In this document: one piece after another, positions 22,931 through 35,983 of the stretch | Layout of the letters: each line of letters begins with the position of its first letter | Position numbering within the stretch: position 1 is the stretch's first letter | DNA from: Candidatus Alloenteromonas pullistercoris | GTDB taxonomy: Bacteria; Bacillota_I; Bacilli_A; RFN20; CAG-826 | Reading direction: 5' to 3' | NCBI GenBank assembly: GCA_017694295.1 | Contig: JADINA010000002.1 | Coordinates: 1 to 35,983 of the forward strand | Length of the DNA stretch: 35,983 bases | The notes under the pieces: generated by a model | Databases searched by the model: none | Told to the model about the DNA's origin: nothing | The model's input: the letters and a program-made list of their open reading frames with translations, nothing else | Made by a program: the position numbers and the translations under genes

Positions 22931-23695
22931 TTAAGCGCCCTTTTTCATCGTTTTCGCGCTGGTTTTGGCAATGAAACGGCGGGATACAAATCGGGAAGCG
23001 AACACCGTGAGCTTGTTTTTGAACCCGATGACCGCCAGCGATTTGCCCTGATCGCTTTTCCTTTTGCCGTATTCGGCGACATAGGCGGCGCTGACCGGCT
23101 TGATTTTGGAAAAGGTGTAATCGTTATGGGCCTTTTTGACGAAATCGGATTCGAATGGGCCAGGGCAAAGGGTCAAAAGCTTAACCGGGCTCTTCCTGAT
23201 TTCGTAGGAAATCGATTCCCCCAAAAGGAGGAGGAACCCCTTGGTCGCGTGGTAGGTGCACATATAGGGGCCGGGGTAGAAGCCGGCTATAGAACAGACG
23301 TTGATGATGTGCCCTTCCCCATTTTGGAGCATTTCGGGGAGGAAGACGCGGCAGAAATACAATGGGGCGTTGCAGTTGACCTCAGTCATGTCCAGCTGCT
23401 TGGCGACCTTCATGTCGATGAAGTCGCAGCGATCCCCAAATCCGGCGACGTTCAATAGGCAATTGACGAAATAGCCGTTTTCCTGGCAATGGGAATAAAC
23501 CTTCTCAAGTTCCTCCCTCTTGCTTAAATCGGCGGTTAAGACCTCAACGTCCCCGCCGATTTCCTCTTTGGTATTCCTAAGCCCCGCCGCATCCTTATCG
23601 ACTAGCAGCAAGGCGTTGCCTTGCCTCCCGTAAAGAAGGGCGAATTCCTTCCCCAGCCCGGAGGCGGCCCCGGTTATCAAGGTTATCTTCTTCAT
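22931..23695 (-). CDS. Short-chain dehydrogenase/reductase
   Basis: NAD(P)-dependent oxidoreductase of the classical SDR family, 254 aa. The cofactor motif TGAASGLG is at residues 8-15, NVAG at 83-86, and the catalytic Ser136 (CSIAG), Tyr149 and Lys153 (YHATK) are all present. D34 after the second strand (LLVDKD) favours NAD. The C-terminal 40 residues are basic with a short hydrophobic stretch, as in SDRs that sit at the membrane. AGGAGA precedes the ATG. Substrate unknown; the neighbouring tetR may control it. Confidence 0.9.
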   Translation of the reverse strand: MKKITLITGAASGLGKEFALLYGRQGNALLLVDKDAAGLRNTKEEIGGDVEVLTADLSKREELEKVYSHCQENGYFVNCLLNVAGFGDRCDFIDMKVAKQLDMTEVNCNAPLYFCRVFLPEMLQNGEGHIINVCSIAGFYPGPYMCTYHATKGFLLLLGESISYEIRKSPVKLLTLCPGPFESDFVKKAHNDYTFSKIKPVSAAYVAEYGKRKSDQGKSLAVIGFKNKLTVFASRFVSRRFIAKTSAKTMKKGA

Positions 23696-23719
23696 GTCTT
23701 ATTCTCCTAAGCGTCCCTA

Positions 23720-23749
23720 ATTATAGTAAGCGGGCAATCGGGAATTAAA
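23720..23749 (-). promoter_or_regulatory. Promoter of the SDR gene
   Basis: TATAAT at 23720-23725 with a weak TTTAAT -35 at 23744-23749 (18-nt spacer), 24 nt before the ATG. Confidence 0.55.
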
Positions 23750-23941
23750 GGGCTCGGGGGTTAGTCACGCTTTGACAAATGGGCAACGCTTTCCATAGTC
23801 AATCCAAACAAAGGGGGACTTCGCCGTTCTCCTAAATGCAGCCTTTTGGCAATATGCATACCTGCCTAGCGGCAAACTCAAGCGAGGTGATTGGGGAAAG
23901 AAGCATTGCCCCTAGCATCTGCCCCGCCATAGGCGATAAGG

Positions 23942-23977
23942 GCAAAAGGAAAGCCAGACTGCGCGCGGCAATCTGGC
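23942..23977 (-). terminator. Terminator of the Big2 lipoprotein operon
   Basis: On the minus strand a 10-bp stem (GCCAGATTGC with GCAGTCTGGC, one G-U pair) around a CGCGC loop, then TTTCCTTTT. It lies about 58 nt after the stop of the lipoprotein gene. The rest of 23750-24034 holds nothing else I can support except a TTGACA/CATAGT pair at 23772-23799 facing right with no gene behind it. Confidence 0.7.
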
Positions 23978-24034
23978 AATCGATTGTTAAGCCTCTAGCG
24001 TGTTCGCTACAAGCCCGATGCGGCTAAGCACCCA

Positions 24035-26599
24035 TTAGAGCATATAGACGTGGTCGTGGTAGGTTTCGTAATAACCGTCTTGGTAGTTGATGTCGATGGT
24101 CTTCATCGATCTGAACACGAAGGTCTCCCCGTAATCAGGAGGCATGAATTCGGTGTAGCCGTCATCGCATTCGAACGCGAATTCCGACATGGAGACTTCC
24201 CCTCCCGCAACCTCAAAGGTCCCGGTGAAGGTCGTTGGGGTGTAGCCATCGTAGAGGAAGGAATAGACGTATGTCCCCGATGTTGGGCCGGTGGCGGCGA
24301 ACTCCAAGGTATTCTCCCCGGAAGCGAACTCCGATTCGCAAAGCAGGCTGGTTATGCCTTCGTCGGTTGAGGGGTAAACCTTGACCGTCTTGGTCAAAGC
24401 ATGCTCGCTGCCTAAGGAGGAATCGTAAACCTCGACGGTGAACTCGCCCTCGCTTTGGGCGCTCACCTCGATTGAATCCGGGTCATCATCAGGCACGGTC
24501 ACGCTCGCATTGGCCGTGTTCTCCCCTACTATCCTGGCTTCCAAGTCGAAGGAGGCGTTGGAGGGGACCGGGACTATCCGGGCCTCATGGGTCGACCCGG
24601 CCAAGATGGCGGAGGGCAGGAAGTCGTTGAAATTGTAGTTGGGCGAGGCCCAGTTAAGGCCGGTTAGGGCCGGGGCGATGACATCGGCCTCGATGGTCTT
24701 GGTGACGTTGGAGGTTTTGACGGTGAAGGTGTAATGCCCGGCTTCCGAGAAGACGATCGAAGCCCAATACTCCATATAGGAGCTCGAGGCGACGGACAAA
24801 CTCACCCCAGTCGAGGGCGAAACGGTGATCTCCGGCTTATCGGCATCGAAGAAGGCGGTCGTGGGCAGGATATCCTCCGGGTAGAGGTAAACGCGGTCAC
24901 CGGTTTCAAACTCATTGCTTTGTACCGGAACGGGCGTCCCATAAGACGAGAAGGAGAAATAGAGGCCATAGTCTTGATAAAGCAAACTCGACTCATCGAG
25001 CAAATGCCCATCCGAGGCTTCCCTTTCGCCGGATGTTTGGGTGAACGAGAACGTCGTTTGATCAGCTATCTCCTCGGTCGGGGCGCCGCTATCCAAATCA
25101 AGCGCATAGGAGACCTTAGTAAACGATCCGGAGACGATTAAACCCGACTCATCGATGGTTATGGAGAGGGAAAGCTCATCGAAGGACGAATACGACTCAT
25201 AGGCGCAACTTAAGGTGTAGGTCGAGCCGTCTATGGCGAGCTCAAGGGAATCAAGGGCATCGGAAGCGCCGAATCCGGAATAGGAGAAGTATTCGTCAAG
25301 CAAATAGGCGGAAATGCCCGGGTCCCCATAGGTATCTGGGAATAGCGGCAAATTGACGTGCCCTAAAGCCTCCTGCGAGGACATCTCGTCCCAAGCGGGG
25401 TCTTCGTCGTTTATGACGGTATCCTCAATCGATTCGACCAAGCCATCGCGGATGGTGGTTTCCCGCAAAACGCCATCGCCTATCTTCTTTTCCACGATTT
25501 CGACCCCATCGTCGGAGGTGATGGTCGATTTGGCGGCGGAGTCGGAGTAGAACTCGTAATCGGCTTCGCCGGTAAAGGCGGAATAGAGCTCGGTCGATTC
25601 GCCTTCGACGTGGGCTGAAGACAAAACCCCGGTCCGCTCAACCTCGGCGGAGGCGGTCAATAGCCCCTTGAAAGTCGAAAGGAAGATCGGCCCGGCCTCC
25701 CCGATGGTGACTTCGGCGGAATCGGTAAGCCCATTGGGGGTGGAGACGGTGACGACGATTGGGTCCACGCTTGTCCTCTTGGCGGTTATCTCATGCCCAT
25801 CGACCCCAAGGTAGATCTCGTTGGAGACGCTTACCGTGTATTCCTGCGATGCCGTCGAAGGCAAAATGGTCGCCTCCACCGTCAAGGTTTGCCCAACGTA
25901 CATCGCGGTCGCGTCAAGATTGATTTCAATCGATTCGGCATCGGGCAAAGAAACGGAAAACTCAACCGAGTCGGAGGCCTCCCCGACTGTTAGGGTGATG
26001 GTGGCCTTTCCCGAGGAAAGCGCGGTGACGTTTCCTTCCTGATCGACGGAAATTACGCCCTCGTCGCTAGAGGAATAAACAAGAGGCAGCCCGTCGATGT
26101 TGTTCTCGACCTTGGCCTCCAGCTTAAGGGTCTCGCCAATTTTGAGCTCGGTTTTCGCCGGGGCCAATATCTCAACGATCAACTCGGGGTTCTCGACGGT
26201 GATGGTCAACGGCTCGCTTTCAACCTCCCCGATAGAGGCGACTATCTGGGTTATGCCCGCCTTTAGGGCCGTCAAGGTCCCGTCTTGGGCAACGCTCACG
26301 ACGCTTGGGTCGGAGGAGGAAAACCCAATCACGCCGCCTTCTGGCATGTTCTCGACCTTCGTCTGCAGCGTTATCGACTCCCCCACTTCCAAGGTCGTCT
26401 TCTCGGGGGCGAGGATGGCAATGCTCACCTCGGGGATGGGCGATTCGCTTGAAGAGGATTCGACGAGGCTAGACGATGATTCGCTTGAGCCTTCCAATGA
26501 GGAGGAAGGCGAGGATGATGATGCGCTTGGATCGGCGCAGGCGGCCAATCCGAGCAACGCCGTCGTCAAAGATAGCAGCAGCTTTTTCACTCTTTTCAT
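24035..26599 (-). CDS. Lipoprotein with three Big2-type Ig-like domains
   Basis: Exported 854-aa surface lipoprotein; lipobox LAAC, lipidated C21, then a Ser/Glu-rich stalk (about 22-56). Three bacterial Ig-like (Big2) repeats follow at about 57-137, 142-218 and 223-302, each with a VGESITLQ-like strand and a GxxxALxxGxxxI motif. Residues 305-640 are an unassigned, acidic region; more beta-rich Ig-like sequence follows to about 770, and the end is a small domain rich in Tyr and Asp. Probably an adhesin or cell-surface binding protein. AGGAGA precedes the ATG, 9 nt after the stop of the gene before it, so it is the last gene of a three-gene operon. Confidence 0.85.
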   Translation of the reverse strand: MKRVKKLLLSLTTALLGLAACADPSASSSSPSSSLEGSSESSSSLVESSSSESPIPEVSIAILAPEKTTLEVGESITLQTKVENMPEGGVIGFSSSDPSVVSVAQDGTLTALKAGITQIVASIGEVESEPLTITVENPELIVEILAPAKTELKIGETLKLEAKVENNIDGLPLVYSSSDEGVISVDQEGNVTALSSGKATITLTVGEASDSVEFSVSLPDAESIEINLDATAMYVGQTLTVEATILPSTASQEYTVSVSNEIYLGVDGHEITAKRTSVDPIVVTVSTPNGLTDSAEVTIGEAGPIFLSTFKGLLTASAEVERTGVLSSAHVEGESTELYSAFTGEADYEFYSDSAAKSTITSDDGVEIVEKKIGDGVLRETTIRDGLVESIEDTVINDEDPAWDEMSSQEALGHVNLPLFPDTYGDPGISAYLLDEYFSYSGFGASDALDSLELAIDGSTYTLSCAYESYSSFDELSLSITIDESGLIVSGSFTKVSYALDLDSGAPTEEIADQTTFSFTQTSGEREASDGHLLDESSLLYQDYGLYFSFSSYGTPVPVQSNEFETGDRVYLYPEDILPTTAFFDADKPEITVSPSTGVSLSVASSSYMEYWASIVFSEAGHYTFTVKTSNVTKTIEADVIAPALTGLNWASPNYNFNDFLPSAILAGSTHEARIVPVPSNASFDLEARIVGENTANASVTVPDDDPDSIEVSAQSEGEFTVEVYDSSLGSEHALTKTVKVYPSTDEGITSLLCESEFASGENTLEFAATGPTSGTYVYSFLYDGYTPTTFTGTFEVAGGEVSMSEFAFECDDGYTEFMPPDYGETFVFRSMKTIDINYQDGYYETYHDHVYML

Positions 26600-26608
26600 G
26601 GTTTTCTC

Positions 26609-27940
26609 CTATTTGCCGGTGAATCCATCCGGCATCGCGGTCGTCCCGATGTTGACGTATTGCATGTCGATGTCGCGGCTTAGCTCAAAGCCCTGAGAGT
26701 CTTCGTAGGTGTAGCCGACGGTGACGGTGTCGATTTGCCCGTTGGCCTTAAGCTTGATGGTCGCCTTGTCGGTTTCCCCATCGGTGAAGTAGGTGATGTG
26801 GCGGACGCCGGGAGAAAGGGGGTTGCCCATATAGCCGAGGGCGTCGAGGTTGTCGCAGACGTAGACGTCCTCCTCTGCGTCGTAGCTAAACAAATAGGGG
26901 GAAGTCGAGGCCAATAGGGGCAAAAGCTCGGCATAGGGCGAAGGCGAGGAATTGTAGGAACGGGTCGAGACGGCCTCGTAATACTCCCACTCGCCGGTCT
27001 CGTCGTTATAGCCATGGCAATAGAGGTTGCCGTCGGGCCGGGATTCGTCTTCGGCGTAATAAAGGCCGCTGGTGAGGTCGCCAAGGGTGATCTGGTGGTA
27101 GATCTCCTCCCCGTCGAAATACATGACCATGTCGTAATCGTGGTTGGGCTCATAGTCCCGGTCATGCTCGCTTATGACGATGGTGAAGTTGTCCCCGATG
27201 CCCTTTAAGGCGGCTTCGAGTTTCTGCTCATGCTCCTCATCGCGCGAAGTGGCTTCCTCGATGCCGGGGAAAACGGCGCTCCCAAGTTCAAATAAGCGGG
27301 CCTCGGCATGGGATTCGACGTTTATTTGGATGTATTCGTAGGTGTAGGCGTCCTGGGTGACCCCGACCGAGGGGGTGGCATCGATCGCTATCCGGTCAAG
27401 CGATCCGTCGTCATTGAAATACAAGGCGACGTCGTCAAGGGGATAGTCGATCCGCATCAATCGATAGGCGAATTCCCATTGCTTAAGCTCGGTAAGGTGG
27501 TAAACGCCATCTTCGTCAAGCGAGAAATCATCGACCGAGACATAGGCGAAGGGGTTGCCGTAATCCATGTCGTAGGAGGCGTTGCTTAGGGCATGGGTTT
27601 GGATGGTGTTGTCGTAGGCCAAATACTCATCAGAGAGTCGCCCCGACGAATCGCGGACGACCTTGGAAACGATCTCGTTCTCCCCATAGCTGATGGCCTC
27701 GGAGGAGGCGTCGCGGGTCTTGACGATGTCGTAACGATACTCGTTTTCAAACATGTAGGCCCCGTTGTCGTGCCTTGAGACGGTCTCGGTCTCGGTGCCG
27801 AGGAGATGGTAGTTGACCCGGGCCTTGGCGAGGAAATCACCAAGCGGGTTGGCTTCGGCCTCCATCCCCAAGGCCGAGCCAACGGGGATCAAGGCGGCGG
27901 TTAAGGCGGCAAGCGCCAAGCCGATGCAATGCTTTTTCAT
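26609..27940 (-). CDS. Secreted protein of unknown function, paralogue of the next lipoprotein
   Basis: 443 aa, with a signal peptide (MKKHCIGLALAALTAAL to about residue 25) but no lipobox Cys, so it is likely released or loosely wall-held. It shares block-wise similarity with the 462-aa lipoprotein encoded upstream: FENEYRY against FDNEYTY, VRDSSG against VRDDSG, NPFAYV against NPFLYL, GDNFT against GDNYT, YFDG in both, and an end with NIGTT against DIGTT. It is acidic and Tyr-rich with no known enzyme motif. It lies 13 nt downstream of the lipoprotein gene and 9 nt upstream of the Big2 gene. Function unknown. Confidence 0.8.
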   Translation of the reverse strand: MKKHCIGLALAALTAALIPVGSALGMEAEANPLGDFLAKARVNYHLLGTETETVSRHDNGAYMFENEYRYDIVKTRDASSEAISYGENEIVSKVVRDSSGRLSDEYLAYDNTIQTHALSNASYDMDYGNPFAYVSVDDFSLDEDGVYHLTELKQWEFAYRLMRIDYPLDDVALYFNDDGSLDRIAIDATPSVGVTQDAYTYEYIQINVESHAEARLFELGSAVFPGIEEATSRDEEHEQKLEAALKGIGDNFTIVISEHDRDYEPNHDYDMVMYFDGEEIYHQITLGDLTSGLYYAEDESRPDGNLYCHGYNDETGEWEYYEAVSTRSYNSSPSPYAELLPLLASTSPYLFSYDAEEDVYVCDNLDALGYMGNPLSPGVRHITYFTDGETDKATIKLKANGQIDTVTVGYTYEDSQGFELSRDIDMQYVNIGTTAMPDGFTGK

Positions 27941-27953
27941 CTTCTTTGCCTCC

Positions 27954-29342
27954 TTAAATGCTCACCGGGACGACGGTGGTCCCGATGTCGGTGTAGACGT
28001 ATTCGTACATCAGCTCGTAGTAGCCGATGTTCGAGGGAACGACGAAATCGACTAGGAGGGTGAGGCTATCCGAGGTGAAGGAAATGTCTATCCCAAGGAT
28101 ATAGCCGATGTCGTAATATGGGTTGGAGCAGACGCCGGGGAGGAAGGCGTTCCCGCAATAGCGGAGGGCGCTTTCGTTAATGACGGTTAGCCCAGTCGCC
28201 CCCGGACCGATGATTGAGGGCGAGACGGTGTTTTGGGCGAGGGAGAAATACTCAATGCCCTTTGGATCGACGTTATAGGCCGAGGAGGAGTCGGCGGGGG
28301 CCTTGCCCCAGCTTTCCCCGTCATAGGCATATTCGTAAAGCAGGCCATCGCCCTCATAGGGGTCGGGGGCATATATAACGTCATTGGTAAACGTCGGGTC
28401 GCCAAGCTCGTAATCGACGTAGCAGGTCGAGCCGTCGAAATAGGTTGTCGAGGTCAGGGTCGGGTCTTTGGGGGTGCCGGCGAGGTAGACGTTGGAGGAG
28501 AGGGTGTAGTTGTCCCCGACCTTGTTAAGCAAATCGACCACCGGGGCCCCATAAGTGCCCTCAGGGCTAAGCTTTGGGCTTTCGACTCTATAGCTTCCGG
28601 CCCCCTCGAAGGTCATGGTCGCCTCGAAGTAATAGTAGATTTGGTAGTATTCGTCGGCCTGGGTGCCGTCTGGGAGGTCCATGGTGAAGCCGTCGACCGG
28701 GTAGGTTTGGATATGCCCGCCGGTGAAATCGGTCCCGTCGAAATACAGAATCATCGACTCGACCGGATGGGTGTTGCCGAAGAAGAGGAAGGATAGGTAA
28801 TCGCGGATCTCGGCGTTGACCTCATACCCGCCTTCGACTTCGGTTAAGTCGGCCTCGGTGAGATAAAGGAAGGGGTTGGAATAGTAATGGTCATAGCCGA
28901 ACCGATAGCCGTCGGCATCGTAAACGGGGGCGAGGGAGAGCTCGTTTTTGGCGTTTACGTATTCGACCGCCGCATACCCGGAATCGTCACGGACATAACT
29001 TTGGGTAAGGGAGAGCCCGCTTTCGGTCGTGTAGCTTTGGGCGGTCTTGACCTGTTCGTGGGCGTCGAAACCGTAGATGTAGGTATATTCGTTGTCGAAT
29101 ACCGGCTCATCGGTTTTGGAGTTGAAGACGCGCTGGAAGTTTTCGGTGGTGATGTTTACCGATAGCCTCGCCTCATCGATGGCTTTCGTGATCGGGGTTC
29201 GGGGGTCATCCTCGGAGGAACCGATGTCGCTTGAGGAGCCCGGAACCGATGACGAAGCGCTTGGATCGTTGCATCCGATAAGGGCCAAGGCCGTCAAAGG
29301 CAAAAGAAGAAATGGCTTAAATTTCATAAAGCCTCCTTTCAA
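27954..29342 (-). CDS. Lipoprotein of unknown function, first of a paralogous pair
   Basis: 462-aa lipoprotein; lipobox LIGC with C19, followed by a Ser/Gly/Asp-rich linker to about residue 45. The mature protein is acidic and rich in Tyr, Thr and Gly, and looks beta-strand dominated. It is a diverged paralogue of the secreted 443-aa protein that follows. GGAGG lies 6 nt before the ATG and a promoter is at 29350-29377, so this is the lead gene of the three-gene surface operon. The pair plus an Ig-domain lipoprotein suggests a surface complex, but this is inference. Confidence 0.8.
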   Translation of the reverse strand: MKGGFMKFKPFLLLPLTALALIGCNDPSASSSVPGSSSDIGSSEDDPRTPITKAIDEARLSVNITTENFQRVFNSKTDEPVFDNEYTYIYGFDAHEQVKTAQSYTTESGLSLTQSYVRDDSGYAAVEYVNAKNELSLAPVYDADGYRFGYDHYYSNPFLYLTEADLTEVEGGYEVNAEIRDYLSFLFFGNTHPVESMILYFDGTDFTGGHIQTYPVDGFTMDLPDGTQADEYYQIYYYFEATMTFEGAGSYRVESPKLSPEGTYGAPVVDLLNKVGDNYTLSSNVYLAGTPKDPTLTSTTYFDGSTCYVDYELGDPTFTNDVIYAPDPYEGDGLLYEYAYDGESWGKAPADSSSAYNVDPKGIEYFSLAQNTVSPSIIGPGATGLTVINESALRYCGNAFLPGVCSNPYYDIGYILGIDISFTSDSLTLLVDFVVPSNIGYYELMYEYVYTDIGTTVVPVSI

Positions 29343-29349
29343 AAGCCGA

Positions 29350-29377
29350 AATATAAATGACGGATGCTTTTTGTAAA
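29350..29377 (-). promoter_or_regulatory. Promoter of the surface-protein operon
   Basis: TTTACA (29372-29377), 16 nt, TATATT (29350-29355), just upstream of the GGAGG site of the lipoprotein gene. Confidence 0.6.
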
Positions 29378-29477
29378 GTAAAATTCAAACACTCGAAGGA
29401 ATTTTGCTTCTTTTGCGCGTTTTTGTTTGCAAATCGGGGACAAAACGATGGGATTTTAAAGGGCTTTCTACCCGATA

Positions 29478-29506
29478 AGGAGCCATTGAAAAGGCAATTG
29501 GCTCCT
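29478..29506. repeat. Hairpin-forming inverted repeat in a 300-bp gap
   Basis: AGGAGCC-ATTG (29478-29488) pairs with CAAT-GGCTCCT (29495-29506) with one bulged base and an AAAAGG loop. No U-run follows on either strand, so it is not a clear terminator. The rest of the gap 29378-29642 is AT-richer and shows no gene that I can support. Confidence 0.4.
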
Positions 29507-29642
29507 AAATTGGCGATTTGGGATAAGTCAAAAGGCTTTTGCGAGTTATTCGTCGTTTTTCCTTGGCTATTAACGCTGCTTCGCCTCAACCGTCGACTCG
29601 AGGGAAAGCAAAAATACGAGGCTGCATTAGGGCAAGGTCTAT

Positions 29643-30191
29643 TTATATGGAATTGATGTTCCCAAGATAGACGATGGTTGAGACGACGAGGGTCATCGGG
29701 TATATATAGGTGAAATTCTGCGTCCGCCTGGTTAGGAAGGTCATCCCGTCGGTTATTTCGTCTAGGGGTATTTCCGTCCCGTCGGCTTTGGTGAAGGGGA
29801 CGTGGCCATAGACGCCCAATTCATATTCCCCTTCGTCGGAAAGGGAATAAAGAAGGTAATTGTCACGGTAATCGTCCTCCGGGGAAGGCTGATAATAGAG
29901 GCTGCCGAAATAAGCGGTTGGGTATAGCCTCTCCTCGATTTGACGGAGGTCGGTCACGTCTTCCGGGGGGTTATCGTAATTGCCAAGCAGGAGGAGCTCG
30001 CCCCTTTCATCCCTTTTGGCCACGATGTTGGACCAGAAGAAATCAAGGCCGCTTTCCTCGGCTTGATCGTTCTCCATCTTAGCCCGGAGGATGACGTTTT
30101 CCAGCGGGTCGCCCCCTTCCTTAGGCGAGGATGGCCCGCAGGAAGCCAAAGACAGCAACGGAAGCAGAAGCAACGCCAAGAGCTTTTTCAT
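29643..30191 (-). CDS. Small lipoprotein coupled to a secreted protease
   Basis: 182-aa lipoprotein with a very hydrophobic signal peptide ending in LASC (lipidated C18). The mature part is acidic with several Tyr-rich patches and ends in a short hydrophobic stretch (TLVVSTIVYLGNI). The ATG at 30189-30191 overlaps the protease stop (ATGA), and the GGAGG used lies inside the protease gene. Such coupling suggests that it assists, anchors or inhibits the protease. No homologous family recognised. Codon use is GC-richer than that of the protease, so the two genes may have different origins. Confidence 0.75.
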   Translation of the reverse strand: MKKLLALLLLPLLSLASCGPSSPKEGGDPLENVILRAKMENDQAEESGLDFFWSNIVAKRDERGELLLLGNYDNPPEDVTDLRQIEERLYPTAYFGSLYYQPSPEDDYRDNYLLYSLSDEGEYELGVYGHVPFTKADGTEIPLDEITDGMTFLTRRTQNFTYIYPMTLVVSTIVYLGNINSI

Positions 30192-31093
30192 GACTTTTCG
30201 ATTTCCTCCTCTATCCAACCAACAATGTAATCCGATACTTTACACGCTTGATCTAAAGTTGAGCTATAACCGCCAGAATGAATACCTACAACAGTCGATG
30301 TTCCTTTTGTAATTGGACCACCGCTTGAACCGGCAATAGCATCACAATTGTGACAAAATTTAAATGTTTCGACGTTGCTCACAATGCCCGGTCCATAACC
30401 AAGTTGAGTTTCTAAATCTCCGTGATAGCCATATAGCCGAACAGTATCTCCGTTGCTAAGAGAAGAAGAAACACCCATATACCCAATTTCTTCCCCGATA
30501 GCCGTATCTAAACTGATAATAGCCCAGTCGTCCGCATGATCTTTCGTTCGAAAATACACTCCGATAGTCCATTGTCTTGAACGAATCTCGCCATATGGGG
30601 CTACAAGTGATCCATTAGAATCGTTGTGTCCGCCCGGATAAACATAAACACTAACGGGCCAAGAATCGCCATATATGAGATGCGATGCAGTCAAGACAGT
30701 TTTTGGACCAACAAGAACTCCTGTACCGACTCCCCAAACATCAACGTCTCCGTCCCCATCATTATCACGACCTGTGTGAATAAGACAAACTGTCCTATAT
30801 GGAAATTTCTTGTAATCATCTTCGTCCGTCAAAACAGTCCGATCATCCGACCCGAAAATAAGCAAAGGATCAATGTAATCTGACGGATCTGGGGAATAAA
30901 AAGTTGTGCTTCCGGCAGAACTTGGTGAAAAATCCTTGGAATATAAATCAGTCACATTTCCGTTCTCGTCACAAGTTTGCGCGATAGGAGTATCATCGAC
31001 TTCTCCAACGAATCCATTGGAAACAGGGGTGGAATCGACAAAGCAAAGCGAAAATACAGACATTAAGGCTAACCCTAGTGATGCAAACAACAT
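30188..31093 (-). CDS. Secreted trypsin-like serine protease
   Basis: 301-aa S1/V8-type protease. An N-terminal signal peptide (about 1-19) is followed by a propeptide-like stretch. The catalytic triad is in order: H138 (TASHLI), D189 (DDWAIISLD) and S257 (GSSGGP). Between the first strand and the His region lies an Asp-rich loop RDNDGDGDVD (109-118) that resembles a calcium-binding DxDxDG loop. C41, C247 and C250 could form disulfides. GGAGG is at good spacing. The gene is clearly AT-richer than its neighbours, with many A- and T-ending codons, which suggests recent transfer. Likely cleaves extracellular or wall proteins; specificity unknown. Confidence 0.9.
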   Translation of the reverse strand: MLFASLGLALMSVFSLCFVDSTPVSNGFVGEVDDTPIAQTCDENGNVTDLYSKDFSPSSAGSTTFYSPDPSDYIDPLLIFGSDDRTVLTDEDDYKKFPYRTVCLIHTGRDNDGDGDVDVWGVGTGVLVGPKTVLTASHLIYGDSWPVSVYVYPGGHNDSNGSLVAPYGEIRSRQWTIGVYFRTKDHADDWAIISLDTAIGEEIGYMGVSSSLSNGDTVRLYGYHGDLETQLGYGPGIVSNVETFKFCHNCDAIAGSSGGPITKGTSTVVGIHSGGYSSTLDQACKVSDYIVGWIEEEIEKS

Positions 31094-31118
31094 ACAAACC
31101 TCCTTTTTTGATATTAAT

Positions 31119-31147
31119 AATTTAATAGAGTTTTAGAAACCGGTCAA
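31119..31147 (-). promoter_or_regulatory. Promoter of the protease-lipoprotein pair
   Basis: TTGACC (31142-31147), 17 nt, TAAATT (31119-31124), 26 nt before the protease ATG. Confidence 0.6.
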
Positions 31148-31235
31148 CAAAAGTTCCGGGCGTTGTAGTTATCCGGTTATTTGTTTCCAATTAAATGCCT
31201 CCCGGATGCGATGATTCCCTCGGAGGCTTTCACAT

Positions 31236-31301
31236 ATGAAGGGACTAAGCGACGCCTACGTGGAATCGGTGATCCGGGCGTTCGTCGTGCTCACCAAATA
31301 A
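31236..31301 (+). CDS. Possible 21-aa micro-ORF or gene remnant
   Basis: A 21-codon frame (MKGLSDAYVES..., ending FVVLTK) with ATG at 31236, preceded by GGAGG exactly 9 nt upstream. GC-rich codons stand out against the AT-rich gap around it. The GGAGG is one arm of GCCTCC/GGAGGC (about 31198-31227), so the ribosome site can be hidden in a hairpin. It could be a real small protein or the surviving end of an old gene cut by rearrangement. The remainder of 31302-31583 is AT-rich and shows no feature. Confidence 0.3.
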   Translation: MKGLSDAYVESVIRAFVVLTK

Positions 31302-31583
31302 TAAAACCAACAAATATCAAATAGTTAAAAGTACAAAATGCAAAGCAATCGCAATGCAAAGACTTCCATATATGCAGAAAACGATTGGAAATAAACCATA
31401 AAACTGCATTTCCTTATGAATATCTAGCAAAAACCTTCAGTGGTGAGAATCGCCCAAAAACCAAATTGGTTCTTCTTACTGCGCCACAGCACATTCTTCC
31501 CCCAATTTACTTCTTTTTTAATAAGGTTTTAGCAATCATTCGTTAAATTCAAGCGACATTCAAAAGGTCAGTTACCAAATTGC

Positions 31584-31617
31584 GAAATTTGAAAAGATTC
31601 CCAAAATCACAAATTTC
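31584..31617 (-). terminator. Nested inverted repeat after the DUF898-like gene
   Basis: GAAATTTG (31584-31591) and CAAATTTC (31610-31617) are perfect arms; GATT (31596-31599) and AATC (31605-31608) pair inside. It lies 27 nt after the stop codon on the minus strand. No T-run follows, so it is at best a weak terminator. Confidence 0.35.
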
Positions 31618-31643
31618 AAAGCTAAACAGCAATTTATCAACCA

Positions 31644-34301
31644 TTAAGCGCCGATATCAGGGGCGAGGGCATTGAACTCAACGATATTGTCGAAATAGGT
31701 TGGGAGGCATTCCCTTGCCTCCTCCTCGCTTCCGCCGAAATGGATATCCGCGTTGCTGGAGAAGGCGCCATCCTCGATTTCGGCGTTGACGTCAAGCAAA
31801 TAGATCTCATAAGTGCAAACAATCGCGCGCGATTTGATCAAAACCTCGTCGAGGGAAGTGTCAATGACGATGGTTGAAGGCGCATACCAGCCGTCGCTCG
31901 TCCAGGCATTCTCGTCGGCATAAAGCCGCGGGGTGTCGATGACGAATTCCGTGTTTGAATAGTTACGGAAAGACGCCCACGCCATAGGAGTCAAAACATA
32001 ATCGCCGACGAAGGCCTTATCGTCTGGCCATTCAGTGTAAAAACCATATCTGATGTCCAGATCACCGATCGGGAAATCGTCGATCGTGCCATCAAATTCG
32101 AAGTCGACGATTTGGTTGCTTAGCGAATACGGGAAGGCAGAGGATGGTCTCTCCTCAACCCAGGAGAAATCGCAACATTCCTCGCCAAAGCGAACCACAT
32201 AGCCTTCATCGGCAAAAGGGAGGAAGAGCCGCCAAGGCTTGGGATGGGCGCAGTTGAGGGTCAAAGTGGAGGCAAAGCCCCGTTGATAATCAAGCACATA
32301 ATCGCCGCTAATGGAGGAATAATCGTATTCAATTTCGAAACTCGACCTGGAAAGCTCATTGAAATAAACGCCCTGGCTTACCCTTCCATCAAAGGAAATC
32401 GCCTCATAGCTGGCATCGGAGCTAAAACGGGACACCGCTCCGGATTGAAGCACGTACTCTTGGTAAAGGTATTGGGATGCGAAATCGCCCGAAAGGAATA
32501 GGAAGCAATCGAATTCATCGCCGAATAACGCCGACATGAAGAAATCGTCGACCTGCAAAGGACGCAAAACCCCGTCCGGGGAATTAATAAGGTTCTCGGT
32601 TAGCGAATCGTAATAGGTATAGACGCCGTCGACATAGCCGAAATCGAATGGATCGAATTCGATGGGGTCGTCGGAAGCAAGGAAATCCTCGTATTGGCCT
32701 TCGGTGGGGAAGGCGTAAAGCCCAAGCAACCCAGTCGAATCAAAATAGGCAATACCCTTCTTAAAACTCGCCGGGCCGATGGAGAAATCAACATAAACGT
32801 TGGCCGTCCATTCCTCGCCTATGGAAGAGGAAACGTTGGGCCCAAACATGCTTTCGAGCTCTTGCTCGGACATACCGAGTTCAAGTTCCTTCGACAACGT
32901 ATCGGCGCCGTAATCATTGAATAACGACAGCAGGATCCTGGCGCCGTTATAAATGGATAAGCCGGCGAAAAAGCCGTCAAATGGGCCGACTAGTATAAGG
33001 GGGATGATGATGGCGAGGACGCTAGCCGCCTTGGTTGGGAATTGGCCTTTAAGCTTCTCCGCCTTCTTGGATTCTTCTTCGATTTCCTGGACGAGGATAA
33101 GCTTTTTGATGGCATTGGCCTCAGGGACTGGCAAAGCGGCGATGGTCGTTAGCCCATAGAAAGGCGAGGCGGTGGGGTCATCGCCCTCTTTCAAGACGCT
33201 CGGATCGAAATAGGTTTTGCCAACGCCCCACTTTATCAGCCTAGTCGGGATGAAAAGGGCGAAAATGCCAAACGTCGGAATGCAAAGAAGCCACCAAAGG
33301 ATGTAATGCCCAAATAGCGAGGTCCCGGTGCCGAGGAACAACAGCTTGCGGCCCGAAATTACGGAATGTGAGACGTAATAACGCTCAACATAGGCTTTGG
33401 CCCAGCAAAGGCCAAGGCCGAGGGTGAGGACGCTTACGATGCCGCCGAGGATAAGGTGGCCCATATAGCCAATCGGCTTCATCGTGTTGGTCGATTCGCC
33501 CTCCTCCCCTTCGATATGGGTATTCGAATCGATCCAGATCTTCACCTTCCCCGGCACCCAAAGGAAATAGATGCCAAAGGTGATTATGGAAAGGAACCAC
33601 CACAAGATGTAATGGCCAAGCAAGCTCGAGAACTTGCCGTCGAAGCGCAGCCTCTTGCCACCGATGGTTTTGTGGGCGCAAAGGTGGCGCTGGAGGAATA
33701 TCGATTTCAAGGGCATGCATATGCCAAGGGTCAAACAGGCCAAAACAAAGCCGCACCACTTCCAAAAAAGGCGCTGGATCAGATAGCCATAATAGGTCGA
33801 GGCTTCTTTCGACTTAAAGTCGAAGTAGCCGGGGTTATGGGCGTCGAATTCCGCTTTCGCCGGGATGGCCTTCTGCTTAACCCAGTCATCGTAAAGTCCG
33901 CAGTAGCGGTCAAGCAAATCGCTTAGGCCCTGGAAATCCTTTTTCGCCAGCGCGGCGTCGATGTCGTCGCTATTGCCGTTGAAGGTGATGGCGGCCTCCT
34001 TGCCTTTGTTGAACTTTTTCTTGATCGAGAAATGGAGAACAAGGCCGCAGATGCCAAAGAACAAAAGAATGAAGGAAATGACGGAAACGGCCAAAAGAGA
34101 GCCGAAAGGCGCCAAATAGATTAGGGAGTCGCCGGTCCTTGAGGCCAAATCCGCCTCAAAGCTTTCGAAAAATTCGTAATTCAACAAGAAAAACGAAGCC
34201 ACCACCAAGGGGGCGACGAAGAAATAAAAGGTTACTATTATCAACGCGACGCTTATCCCGGCGCGCAGATGCTTTTTCAGGCATTGTGCCTGCTTTGTCA
34301 A
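31644..34301 (-). CDS. Large DUF898-like membrane protein with extracytoplasmic C-terminal part
   Basis: 885 aa. Two N-terminal helices (about 13-39, 55-80) are followed by three related membrane repeats of the DUF898/YjgN kind, with GKRLRFDG...SLLGHYILWW...TFGIYFLWVP (about 215-255) and GRKLLFLG...SLFGHYILWW...TFGIFALFIP (about 315-355) as the clearest copies. A further helix near 440 leads to a large acidic C-terminal region (about 470-885) starting with an SmpA-like GMSEQELESMFG. The start is a TTG at 34299-34301 with only a weak GGAAAA upstream; no in-frame ATG fits. Single gene between AT-rich gaps. Function unknown. Confidence 0.8.
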   Translation of the reverse strand: MTKQAQCLKKHLRAGISVALIIVTFYFFVAPLVVASFFLLNYEFFESFEADLASRTGDSLIYLAPFGSLLAVSVISFILLFFGICGLVLHFSIKKKFNKGKEAAITFNGNSDDIDAALAKKDFQGLSDLLDRYCGLYDDWVKQKAIPAKAEFDAHNPGYFDFKSKEASTYYGYLIQRLFWKWCGFVLACLTLGICMPLKSIFLQRHLCAHKTIGGKRLRFDGKFSSLLGHYILWWFLSIITFGIYFLWVPGKVKIWIDSNTHIEGEEGESTNTMKPIGYMGHLILGGIVSVLTLGLGLCWAKAYVERYYVSHSVISGRKLLFLGTGTSLFGHYILWWLLCIPTFGIFALFIPTRLIKWGVGKTYFDPSVLKEGDDPTASPFYGLTTIAALPVPEANAIKKLILVQEIEEESKKAEKLKGQFPTKAASVLAIIIPLILVGPFDGFFAGLSIYNGARILLSLFNDYGADTLSKELELGMSEQELESMFGPNVSSSIGEEWTANVYVDFSIGPASFKKGIAYFDSTGLLGLYAFPTEGQYEDFLASDDPIEFDPFDFGYVDGVYTYYDSLTENLINSPDGVLRPLQVDDFFMSALFGDEFDCFLFLSGDFASQYLYQEYVLQSGAVSRFSSDASYEAISFDGRVSQGVYFNELSRSSFEIEYDYSSISGDYVLDYQRGFASTLTLNCAHPKPWRLFLPFADEGYVVRFGEECCDFSWVEERPSSAFPYSLSNQIVDFEFDGTIDDFPIGDLDIRYGFYTEWPDDKAFVGDYVLTPMAWASFRNYSNTEFVIDTPRLYADENAWTSDGWYAPSTIVIDTSLDEVLIKSRAIVCTYEIYLLDVNAEIEDGAFSSNADIHFGGSEEEARECLPTYFDNIVEFNALAPDIGA

Positions 34302-34426
34302 TTTATTTTTTCCATGGAGTCAACTGTACCCATCACACAATAACTTTCAATATGGCTCGGCAAGGAATTGGCTCATTGAAAAAAGAAACTCCGGACAGTC
34401 TACCAAAGCAAACGGTTAAAAATAAT

Positions 34427-34490
34427 TCGTTCCGATAAGTGCTGATTCCGTTCAGATTTGGTTTATATCGTTCCGATAATATGACATAAT
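34427..34490 (+). promoter_or_regulatory. fic promoter with duplicated operator-like repeats
   Basis: TCGTTCCGATAA occurs as a perfect direct repeat at 34427-34438 and 34468-34479, 41 bp (about four helical turns) apart. The second copy lies between a TTTATA -35 (34462-34467) and an extended -10 TGACATAAT (34482-34490). A protein on the repeats would block transcription. Confidence 0.55.
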
Positions 34491-34508
34491 CTGCAAAAGG
34501 AGAAATGC

Positions 34509-35393
34509 ATGAACACGAAAGAAGCCGCCAATAAATGGGGCATCTCCGACCGAAGAGTGCGTATCCTTTGCCAACAGGGAAAGATTGATGGTGCCCGACT
34601 GGAAGGGAAAACTTGGGTTATCCCAAATAACGCCGTCAAACCGGCGGATGGCCGGGAAAGCATCCCCTCGTATTTAAATACGATCAAACAGATGAAATCG
34701 GAACTCGACTCGAAGCGCCCGCTCACCCCATTGGAAACCAAGGCCTTGAACGAAGAATTCGCCATTGAATACACCTATGATTCCAACGCTATTGAAGGAA
34801 ACACCCTCTCCTTAAGGGAAACCGATATGGTTTTGCGCGGCCTAACCATAGACAAAAAACCGCTGAAAGACCATCTTGAGGCAATCGGCCACAAAGAAGC
34901 GTTCGACTATGTCTGCAGCCTCGTCGAAAGCAAAGAACCGCTTAACTCATGGACAATCAGGCAAATCCATTCGCTCGTCTTAATGGGCAGCACAAGCGAC
35001 AAAGGCGTTTACCGAAGGATCCCCGTCGTAATATCAGGCGCCAAAACGATGCCGGCCGAACCTAGCCTTATCCCAGAAAAGATGGAGGCTCTTCTTTCCT
35101 GGTATAACAATGCAAAAGAAGATGATTTCCTCACTCTTCTTGCCAAGTTCCATATCGAATTCGAATCTATACACCCCTTTATTGACGGCAACGGCAGAAC
35201 CGGAAGATTGCTTATCAACTTGGAACTTATGAAGCTTGGCTACCCCCCAATCGACATCAAGTTCACCGACAGGAAAGCTTATTACGACGCGTTCGACAAA
35301 TATTGTGCCGGCGGCTCAGCAAACGCGATGGCTAAGCTATTCGCCAAATACCTGACTCAAATACTAAGGAAATATCTCTCGGCTATAAAATGA
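34509..35393 (+). CDS. Fic-family AMP-transferase with N-terminal helix-turn-helix
   Basis: 294 aa. The N-terminus (about 1-40, TKEAANKWGISDRRVRILCQ) is a MerR/excisionase-like DNA-binding fold. The inhibitory motif SNAIEG (92-97, E96) is class II-like, placed before the Fic core, and the catalytic HPFIDGNGRTGR lies at 222-233 with H222. Fic enzymes transfer AMP or other NMPs to target proteins. AAAGGAG precedes the ATG by 6-8 nt. The gene stands alone, AT-richer than the core genes, near an integration scar. No cognate antitoxin gene is seen, and the built-in inhibitory helix makes one unnecessary. Its DNA-binding domain probably acts on its own promoter repeats. Confidence 0.93.
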   Translation: MNTKEAANKWGISDRRVRILCQQGKIDGARLEGKTWVIPNNAVKPADGRESIPSYLNTIKQMKSELDSKRPLTPLETKALNEEFAIEYTYDSNAIEGNTLSLRETDMVLRGLTIDKKPLKDHLEAIGHKEAFDYVCSLVESKEPLNSWTIRQIHSLVLMGSTSDKGVYRRIPVVISGAKTMPAEPSLIPEKMEALLSWYNNAKEDDFLTLLAKFHIEFESIHPFIDGNGRTGRLLINLELMKLGYPPIDIKFTDRKAYYDAFDKYCAGGSANAMAKLFAKYLTQILRKYLSAIK

Positions 35394-35528
35394 AATGAGC
35401 GCTTACGATAAATATCGGACCACAAGCAATCCTCGATTATCCGATTATTCATTCAAAGCCGGCCGATGCAAAAGATAATGCAAGAGTTTTTCTCCTTCGT
35501 CTTTTTTCCTCATATCAATATGAAACCC
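35394..35528. other. Gap between fic and the tRNA terminator
   Basis: AT-rich intergenic stretch with no gene I can support. A TATCGGAC sequence near 35413-35420 partly resembles the reverse of the fic promoter repeats, but is not a full copy. Confidence 0.4.
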
Positions 35529-35554
35529 AAAAAATAAAAACCCGATTTCTCGGG
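35529..35554 (-). terminator. Terminator of the tRNA-Leu fragment
   Basis: CCCGA/TCGGG with a GAAA tetraloop on the minus strand, then TTTTTATTTTTT (35529-35540). It lies 14 nt beyond the tRNA CCA end and is the tRNA's own terminator. Confidence 0.88.
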
Positions 35555-35568
35555 CATATTTGGTTTTA

Positions 35569-35621
35569 TGGTGCGCCAGACAGGACTTGAACCTGCACGG
35601 TTGCCCACATGATCCTAAGTC
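35569..35621 (-). tRNA. 3' half of a tRNA-Leu(UAG) gene, truncated att site
   Basis: On the minus strand the sequence runs from the anticodon loop (CTTAGGA, anticodon TAG) through the long variable arm and an intact T arm (GCAGG TTCAAGT CCTGT) to the acceptor strand CTGGCGC, A73 and an encoded CCA (35569-35571). The 5' half (acceptor start GCGCCAG, D arm) is not found upstream; the sequence becomes unrelated right after the anticodon stem begins. This is what an integrase that recombines in the anticodon loop leaves at the far end of an element. Confidence 0.8.
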
Positions 35622-35749
35622 TTACGTGATGCCAGGAACGGACCTGGGATTTTGGAATCGAGAGGAACATTTTGCCCATGTATGGTTGATTTTCCTCTCT
35701 GTCCGACTACTTCTTCAGGAATCCCTAGGAACCCCGATGAATGGCGGAT

Positions 35750-35780
35750 GCGGACGAATTGCGGACGAATTGCGGACAAC
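35750..35780. repeat. Tandem 11-bp repeats beside the tRNA fragment
   Basis: GCGGACGAATT at 35750-35760 and 35761-35771, then GCGGACAAC at 35772-35780, about 130 bp from the truncated tRNA. The size and placement fit integrase arm-type binding sites (inference). Confidence 0.6.
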
Positions 35781-35882
35781 TATGGCTAATTATCCGAACC
35801 ACTCCAGGCAACGAAGGCGAATCTTTCGGAACGGCCTCCGTTCTTTGTTTTAAAAGTCCTAAGGTGCACACGGGTGATCTAA

Positions 35883-35891
35883 TGGTATAAT
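35883..35891 (+). promoter_or_regulatory. Extended -10 promoter at the right edge
   Basis: TG-G-TATAAT (35883-35891), a perfect extended -10 element; no clear -35 is seen at the right distance. An 8-bp dyad CGCGGATG/CATCCGCG (35892-35899, 35905-35912) lies directly over the expected start point. Confidence 0.6.
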
Positions 35892-35897
35892 CGCGGA

Positions 35898-35983
35898 TGC
35901 GGTTCATCCGCGTTTCAATGGCCCTTGTGGGCCTTCCCGTTTGAGAAATCAGCAGCTCCCCGGGCAGGCCCCCAAGGGACGGG
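35898..35983 (+). ncRNA. Candidate structured non-coding RNA, cut by the window end
   Basis: GC-rich sequence after an extended -10 box, with no start codon plus ribosome site and several stems: GCGG/CCGC at the 5' end, GGCCC-TTGT-GGGCC, and CCCGT pairing with ACGGG at the very end. It does not match tRNA, tmRNA, SRP or the RNase P cores I can recall. It could be a known Bacillota RNA such as the raiA motif, but I cannot verify this. The 3' end is outside the window. Confidence 0.35.

Follow-up and report, generated by a model that had tools for sequence, protein, structure and literature searches.

What becomes of a host when mobile DNA cuts one of its transfer RNA (tRNA) genes in two? Mobile DNA classically lands in tRNA genes, and by the standard explanation such integration is harmless, as the element restores the tRNA. 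The question is raised by a 35,983-bp stretch of DNA from Candidatus Alloenteromonas pullistercoris (the window; contig JADINA010000002.1, here C15), which carries near its right end the 3′ half of a tRNA-Leu(UAG) gene cut at the anticodon loop. We consider it very probable that this cut is attR, the right end of an integrative element, probably an integrative and conjugative element (ICE), which a tyrosine integrase put into the host's tRNA-Leu(UAG) at the anticodon loop and which supplies a complete, different tRNA. The window is an entire contig of a draft bin (genome G000; 1.42 Mb in 40 contigs, 87% complete, with a contamination estimate of 0.07%), so that the remainder of the element must sit elsewhere in the assembly.

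A host tRNA-Leu(UAG) gene in two halves

The half-gene in the window, GACTTAGGATCATGTGGGCAACCGTGCAGGTTCAAGTCCTGTCTGGCGCACCA when read on the minus strand, consists of the anticodon loop CTTAGGA, the T-arm, the 3′ strand of the acceptor stem, A73 and CCA (Table 1). The same stretch is found within the intact tRNA-Leu(UAG) genes of many relatives, where the match stops at the anticodon loop, making the resemblance more than chance. ARAGORN found no complete tRNA in the whole window. A preliminary description of this DNA had recognized the half-gene with its terminator, the tandem repeats beyond it and the end of an element extending rightward from the anticodon loop, all of which are confirmed here. 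It had further proposed to look for a second copy of the half; no duplicate with a terminator exists in the G000 genome.

The 5′ half lies on contig C25 (positions 26457-26495, 97%), ~930 bp after rarA, and ends in GACTTAGGA. The neighbourhood of rarA is a conserved place for this tRNA, as relatives typically carry an intact tRNA-Leu(UAG) there. When joined at their common core, the halves from C25 and C15 yield an 83-nt tRNA-Leu(tag) whose acceptor stem pairs at 7/7 positions and which is 93% identical to the intact tRNA of genome G009. C15 is independently tied to the tRNA locus by its short-chain dehydrogenase gene, a homologue of which stands right after the intact tRNA of genome G014. Thus, with one half on C25, the other on C15, an exact fit between them and no duplicate half, the host tRNA-Leu(UAG) is cut in two and is not restored by anything. 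We infer the contig order to be C25, gap, reversed C15. The assembly is broken on both sides by a hairpin-rich 131-bp repeat with a TATAAT-like box, which is probably an insertion sequence end or a long inverted repeat; it could also be the arm of an invertible segment.

Table 1 Features of the window around the cut tRNA-Leu(UAG) gene and on its host side.
Feature	Position	Strand	Evidence or remark
Host tRNA-Leu(UAG) 3′ half, anticodon loop to CCA (attR, host side)	35569..35621	(-)	Sequence; fits C25:26457-26495
Crossover core GACTTAGGA (anticodon loop CTTAGGA and stem bases)	35613..35621	(-)	Common to attL on C25 and attR here
Element right arm	35622..35852	(.)	Kept beside truncated tRNA-Leu(UAG) in G255 (86%/144 bp) and G007 (78%/189 bp)
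Three tandem 11-bp arm-type repeats, TGCGGACGAAT / TGCGGACGAAT / TGCGGACAACT	35749..35781	(+)	Presumed integrase arm sites
131-bp repeat	35853..35983	(.)	Identical to C25 end 34132-34262, inverted to it on the joined map
Hairpin resembling a terminator, with T-run, behind the tRNA 3′ half on the host side	35530..35554	(-)	Sequence; similar terminator behind the G255 3′ half
fic gene, outside the element on the 3′-half side, not part of it	34509..35393	(+)	PF02661 Fic, E=4e-23
Short-chain dehydrogenase	22931..23695	(-)	76% homologue directly after intact tRNA-Leu(UAG) in G014

A complete tRNA of different sequence inside the element

C25 encodes a complete tRNA-Leu(tag) (26732-26815; acceptor sequence GCGGACA) ~230 bp into the element, counted from the 5′ half. 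Behind it come a terminator and a small open reading frame (ORF) with AP2-like relatives. This tRNA is 78% identical to the split host tRNA. The preliminary description had expected an intact tRNA at the other end of the element, that is, a restored target; we rejected the C25 gene for that role, as its acceptor stem differs and cannot pair with the half in the window. It is foreign, and the 5′ half of the host gene stands apart from it.

The leucine tRNAs found in G000 have the anticodons UAA, GAG, CAG, CAA and UAG, and the gene at C25:26732 is the only intact UAG isoacceptor among them. Since CUA codons are in use (59 of the 735 leucine codons in the window's genes), the host probably depends on the element-borne tRNA-Leu(UAG) to decode them.

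The D-arm GGCGTAATGGNAGCCGCG, carried by the substitute tRNAs of both G000 and G228, a genome of the same family, is also present in viral tRNA arrays, and one IMG/VR contig (L257) resembles the G000 substitute in acceptor and D-arm. The substitute may accordingly have been derived from phage tRNA-Leu genes, although the case is weak, because similarities to annotated phage tRNAs are only ~75-83%. The phage-borne genes stand in tRNA arrays and are untied to a split host tRNA. A scan for the D-arm of the substitute in 392 genomes of the phylum returned only G000, which proves little, as the D-arm varies among substitutes. No relatives of the AP2-like protein were found in viral contigs, where the G228 integrase had a single distant match; a free phage form of the element is thus unsupported. 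The phage record MT837436, which matched the tRNA half, looks like chromosomal DNA, since its tRNA-Leu(UAG) is intact and one of its ORFs is phosphoglycerate-kinase-like. A search of Rfam gave nothing beyond one sub-threshold match.

Crossover core and arm sites

Tyrosine integrases of the lambda type act on a short core with repeats on both sides, and an overlap region in the anticodon loop is to be expected of them. At both ends of the element the core GACTTAGGA lies in the anticodon loop of the tRNA target, attL reading ...GCATGACTTAGGACCATAC and attR ...CGTAAGACTTAGGATCATG. Beyond the core, at a distance of ~128 bp, the window holds TGCGGACGAAT at 35749 and 35760 (100%) and TGCGGACAACT at 35771 (82%). 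The motif TGCGGAC occurs three times in the 230-bp right arm and three times in the left arm on C25, as against five times in the 69.3 kb outside the arms, an enrichment of ~180-fold over background. Both the motif and the 11-bp spacing recur in the right arm of an element in G596, a genome from another family of the order, and in each of three left arms, those of C25, G596 and G236, exactly 64 bp separate the core from the first TGCGGAC. Repeated short sites, predicted to bind the integrase, are therefore present in both arms around a short core. Exact-pattern scans of IMG/VR and GTDB contigs for the 11-bp repeat yielded mostly chance matches in unrelated phyla; among these matches, extended similarity to the arm was confined to the contigs of G255 and of G007, which belongs to the same genus.

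The three tyrosine recombinases found in G000 (one XerC-like, beside a trmFO-like gene; one XerD-like; and one beside tRNA-Arg(CCG)) were each considered as the integrase of the element and set aside, none being linked to the tRNA-Leu(UAG) locus. The left part of the element that was recovered (C25:26816-34131) carries defence-like genes, among them two related proteins, one of which has an FRG domain match, an HNH_5 endonuclease and a DUF4365 protein.

Elements of the same layout in other genomes

The layout found in G000 recurs in relatives in which an integrase is present, at tRNA-Leu(UAG) in G596 and at tRNA-Leu(CAA) in both G228 and G596. In G228, tRNA-Leu(CAA) is split by a 33.6-kb ICE that has a complete tRNA-Leu(CAA) just inside its 5′-half end and genes for an integrase, a MobL relaxase, a type IV secretion system (T4SS) coupling protein, a TraG/VirB4-like ATPase and an ArdC-like protein. 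Conjugation genes, present in that element, were not recovered for the window's own element, the middle of which is unassembled. G596, available as one 2.08-Mb contig, likewise carries ICE segments between the halves of its tRNA-Leu(CAA), and these are ~95% identical to those of G228 over 22 kb. The substitute tRNA-Leu(CAA) genes of the two genomes are identical (86/86), whereas similarity between the split host tRNAs is just 74%, which indicates that the complete tRNA, as judged from these comparisons, travels with the element. The attP of the Leu(CAA) ICE seems to hold two alternative cores, TTCAAAA and CTCAAAA (L249 ~18693 and L248 ~5160 in G228; ~127240 and ~173360 in G596:C1), and we infer that each host's insertion used the core matching its own anticodon loop.

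The insertion at tRNA-Leu(UAG) in G596 is the best guide to what the gap between C25 and C15 contains. One contig end carries the 5′ half, the left arm, a substitute tRNA, a terminator and an AP2-like ORF; the other carries ICE-type genes, an integrase of 449 aa (47% identical to that of G228), a GmrSD-like gene, a right arm with TGCGGAC three times at 11-bp spacing, and the 3′ half. The joined halves give an 85-nt tRNA-Leu(tag). The preliminary description had thought an integrase probable at the other end of the element, where it also expected the intact tRNA; in G228 and G596 it is found near the 3′-half end and does not adjoin the intact tRNA. The recombinase of the G000 element should resemble the integrase of the related G596 element.

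A further tRNA may be targeted in the same manner. In G043 (C58; L263:9485-9748), a complete tRNA-Ser(CGA) stands beside an integrase of the same group, and a truncated second tRNA-Ser copy, cut at the anticodon loop, lies at the contig end, suggesting tRNA-Ser(CGA) as a probable third target of this strategy. Two single-gene cassettes of ~1.6-1.9 kb (L080:4515-6197 in G013:C28 and L272:11516-13435 in G596:C1) each carry one AAA_14/DUF4143 ATPase gene without an integrase and are flanked by near-identical parts of tRNA-Leu(UAG); they have the appearance of minimal, non-autonomous members of the ordinary class, which restores its tRNA. In G255, an ATPase_2 gene occupies a comparable place (L172:17711-18796).

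Proposed mechanism and alternative explanations

As we picture it, the attP of the element would carry the short core only, without the 3′ part of a tRNA, and the integrase would recombine it with the core in the anticodon loop, so that the two halves of the host tRNA would be parted by integration. The element would compensate with its complete, different tRNA-Leu(UAG), which has its own terminator and would take over from inside the left end. Precise excision could restore the host gene until the halves decay; thereafter, loss of the element would mean loss of the tRNA. We know of no trans-spliced split tRNA system in bacteria, and trans-splicing of the halves is unnecessary given a complete substitute.

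Several points weigh against this interpretation. The middle of the element is missing from G000, where the assembly breaks at the 131-bp repeat, and its integrase, if it has one, was not recovered. C15 was joined to C25 on the strength of the tRNA halves, the arms and synteny rather than of reads. Expression and charging of the substitute tRNA, and hence its function, are predictions. Finally, a further tRNA-Leu(UAG) may exist beyond the recovered part of the bin. On the other side stand features that can be read directly from the DNA, namely the position of the cut, the fit of the halves, the foreign complete tRNA, the arms on both sides, the layout in relatives and the related elements with an identical tRNA in two hosts.

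Were the locus an ordinary tRNA island, whose attP brings the 3′ part of the tRNA and restores the target, the window would hold the displaced 3′ fragment, and the fragment, its terminator and the arm repeats would all be as expected; such an island is moreover at hand in G013, a genome of the same genus, where the 1.6-kb ATPase cassette is flanked by an intact tRNA and by a duplicated tRNA part that is almost identical to it. In G000, however, the 3′ half has no other copy, the acceptor stem of the intact tRNA does not match it, and a separate 5′ half exists that does, at all seven positions, which leaves this explanation highly improbable. Slightly less credible still is an artefact of binning or assembly, by which C15 and C25 would come from different strains or species and their halves would only appear to be one gene. 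The draft state of the bin, with its 40 contigs, and the shared 131-bp repeat at both contig ends would allow for it, but the halves are exactly complementary, the arm motif matches, the contamination estimate is very low, and the split-plus-substitute layout also occurs within single contigs of G228 and G596. The fragment could finally be the old pseudogene remnant of a decayed duplicate tRNA-Leu gene, with no mobility involved, in keeping with the stacked 3′ halves without a nearby integrase in G236, G221 and G255; yet the cut in these cases falls at the anticodon loop, a conserved arm with repeats adjoins it, and in G000 the matching 5′ half bears the matching opposite arm, so that we give this last explanation almost no credence.

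Signs of repeated replacement at one locus

If integration splits the host tRNA and brings a substitute, the substitute may be split in its turn. G015 carries two successive 5′ halves with a left arm after each. In G236 and G007, the terminator and AP2-like ORF that normally accompany a substitute tRNA come after a displaced 3′ half, which indicates that the substitute itself was later split. Three 3′ halves and one intact tRNA are present in G236. Its outermost 5′ and 3′ halves can be joined to a tRNA-Leu(tag) whose acceptor stem contains a mismatch, consistent with decay after displacement of the gene. On balance, we lean towards a conjugative family with obligatory tRNA replacement, in which the host tRNA is destroyed, the host lives on the element-borne and perhaps phage-derived tRNA, the next element targets that tRNA, tRNA-Leu(UAG) is exchanged repeatedly, and decayed halves lock the element in. 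Such replacement would explain the pile-up at one locus of tRNA-Leu(UAG) fragments with different acceptor stems.

Relation to known systems

tRNA islands, as defined in Islander (PMC4383910), are those whose attP brings a tRNA fragment that restores the target. The G000 element shares with them the tRNA target, a crossover in the anticodon loop (class A), a displaced tRNA fragment at one end and, to judge by its integrase-bearing relatives, probably the tyrosine integrase family. It differs in that nothing is restored: the 3′ half is not duplicated, both halves are displaced, and the intact tRNA inside the element is of different sequence. ICEs of the type with a MobL relaxase and VirB4/VirD4 have in common with the G228 element its integrase, relaxase, coupling protein, TraG/VirB4-like ATPase and ArdC-like protein; unlike in those ICEs, integration here disrupts the tRNA gene and replaces it wholesale. 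The archaeal integrases of SSV1 and pTN3 likewise have the anticodon loop as their overlap region, and the integration events reviewed for archaea restore an uninterrupted copy (PMC8371274).

The nearest precedent that we found is the tRNA-Thr locus of Caldiarchaeum (Sugahara 2012, PMC3293823), where the 5′ fragment of a tRNA lies near a complete variant of that tRNA and a recombinase-coding insert is present. That locus involves archaeal, intron-containing tRNAs and was put forward to explain how introns and scattered fragments arise, rather than as a substitute-bearing element (PMC3293823). In the open-access literature searched, we found no description of two displaced halves together with a complete foreign substitute tRNA. 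As we read the evidence, these are tyrosine-integrase elements by which a tRNA gene is split and replaced with a complete one, as opposed to the fragment-restoring islands of the textbook. If this is true, an element could make itself indispensable in a new way, and a tRNA that the cell needs could be replaced horizontally. Insertions of this class may be overlooked by tools that rely on tRNA duplication; a search for intact tRNAs accompanied by their own fragments could miss or misread them.

Neighbouring genes in the window

The preliminary description had placed fic just outside the element, on the host side. The gene does lie outside the element, but it may not be ancestral host DNA, because the window from 23.7 to 35.57 kb is extra DNA relative to G014, where the dehydrogenase homologue directly follows the tRNA. 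Besides fic, the stretch between the 3′ half and the dehydrogenase (23700-35568) holds DUF6693/DUF898 and Big_2 proteins, all of it absent from that place in G014; it is possibly an older island.
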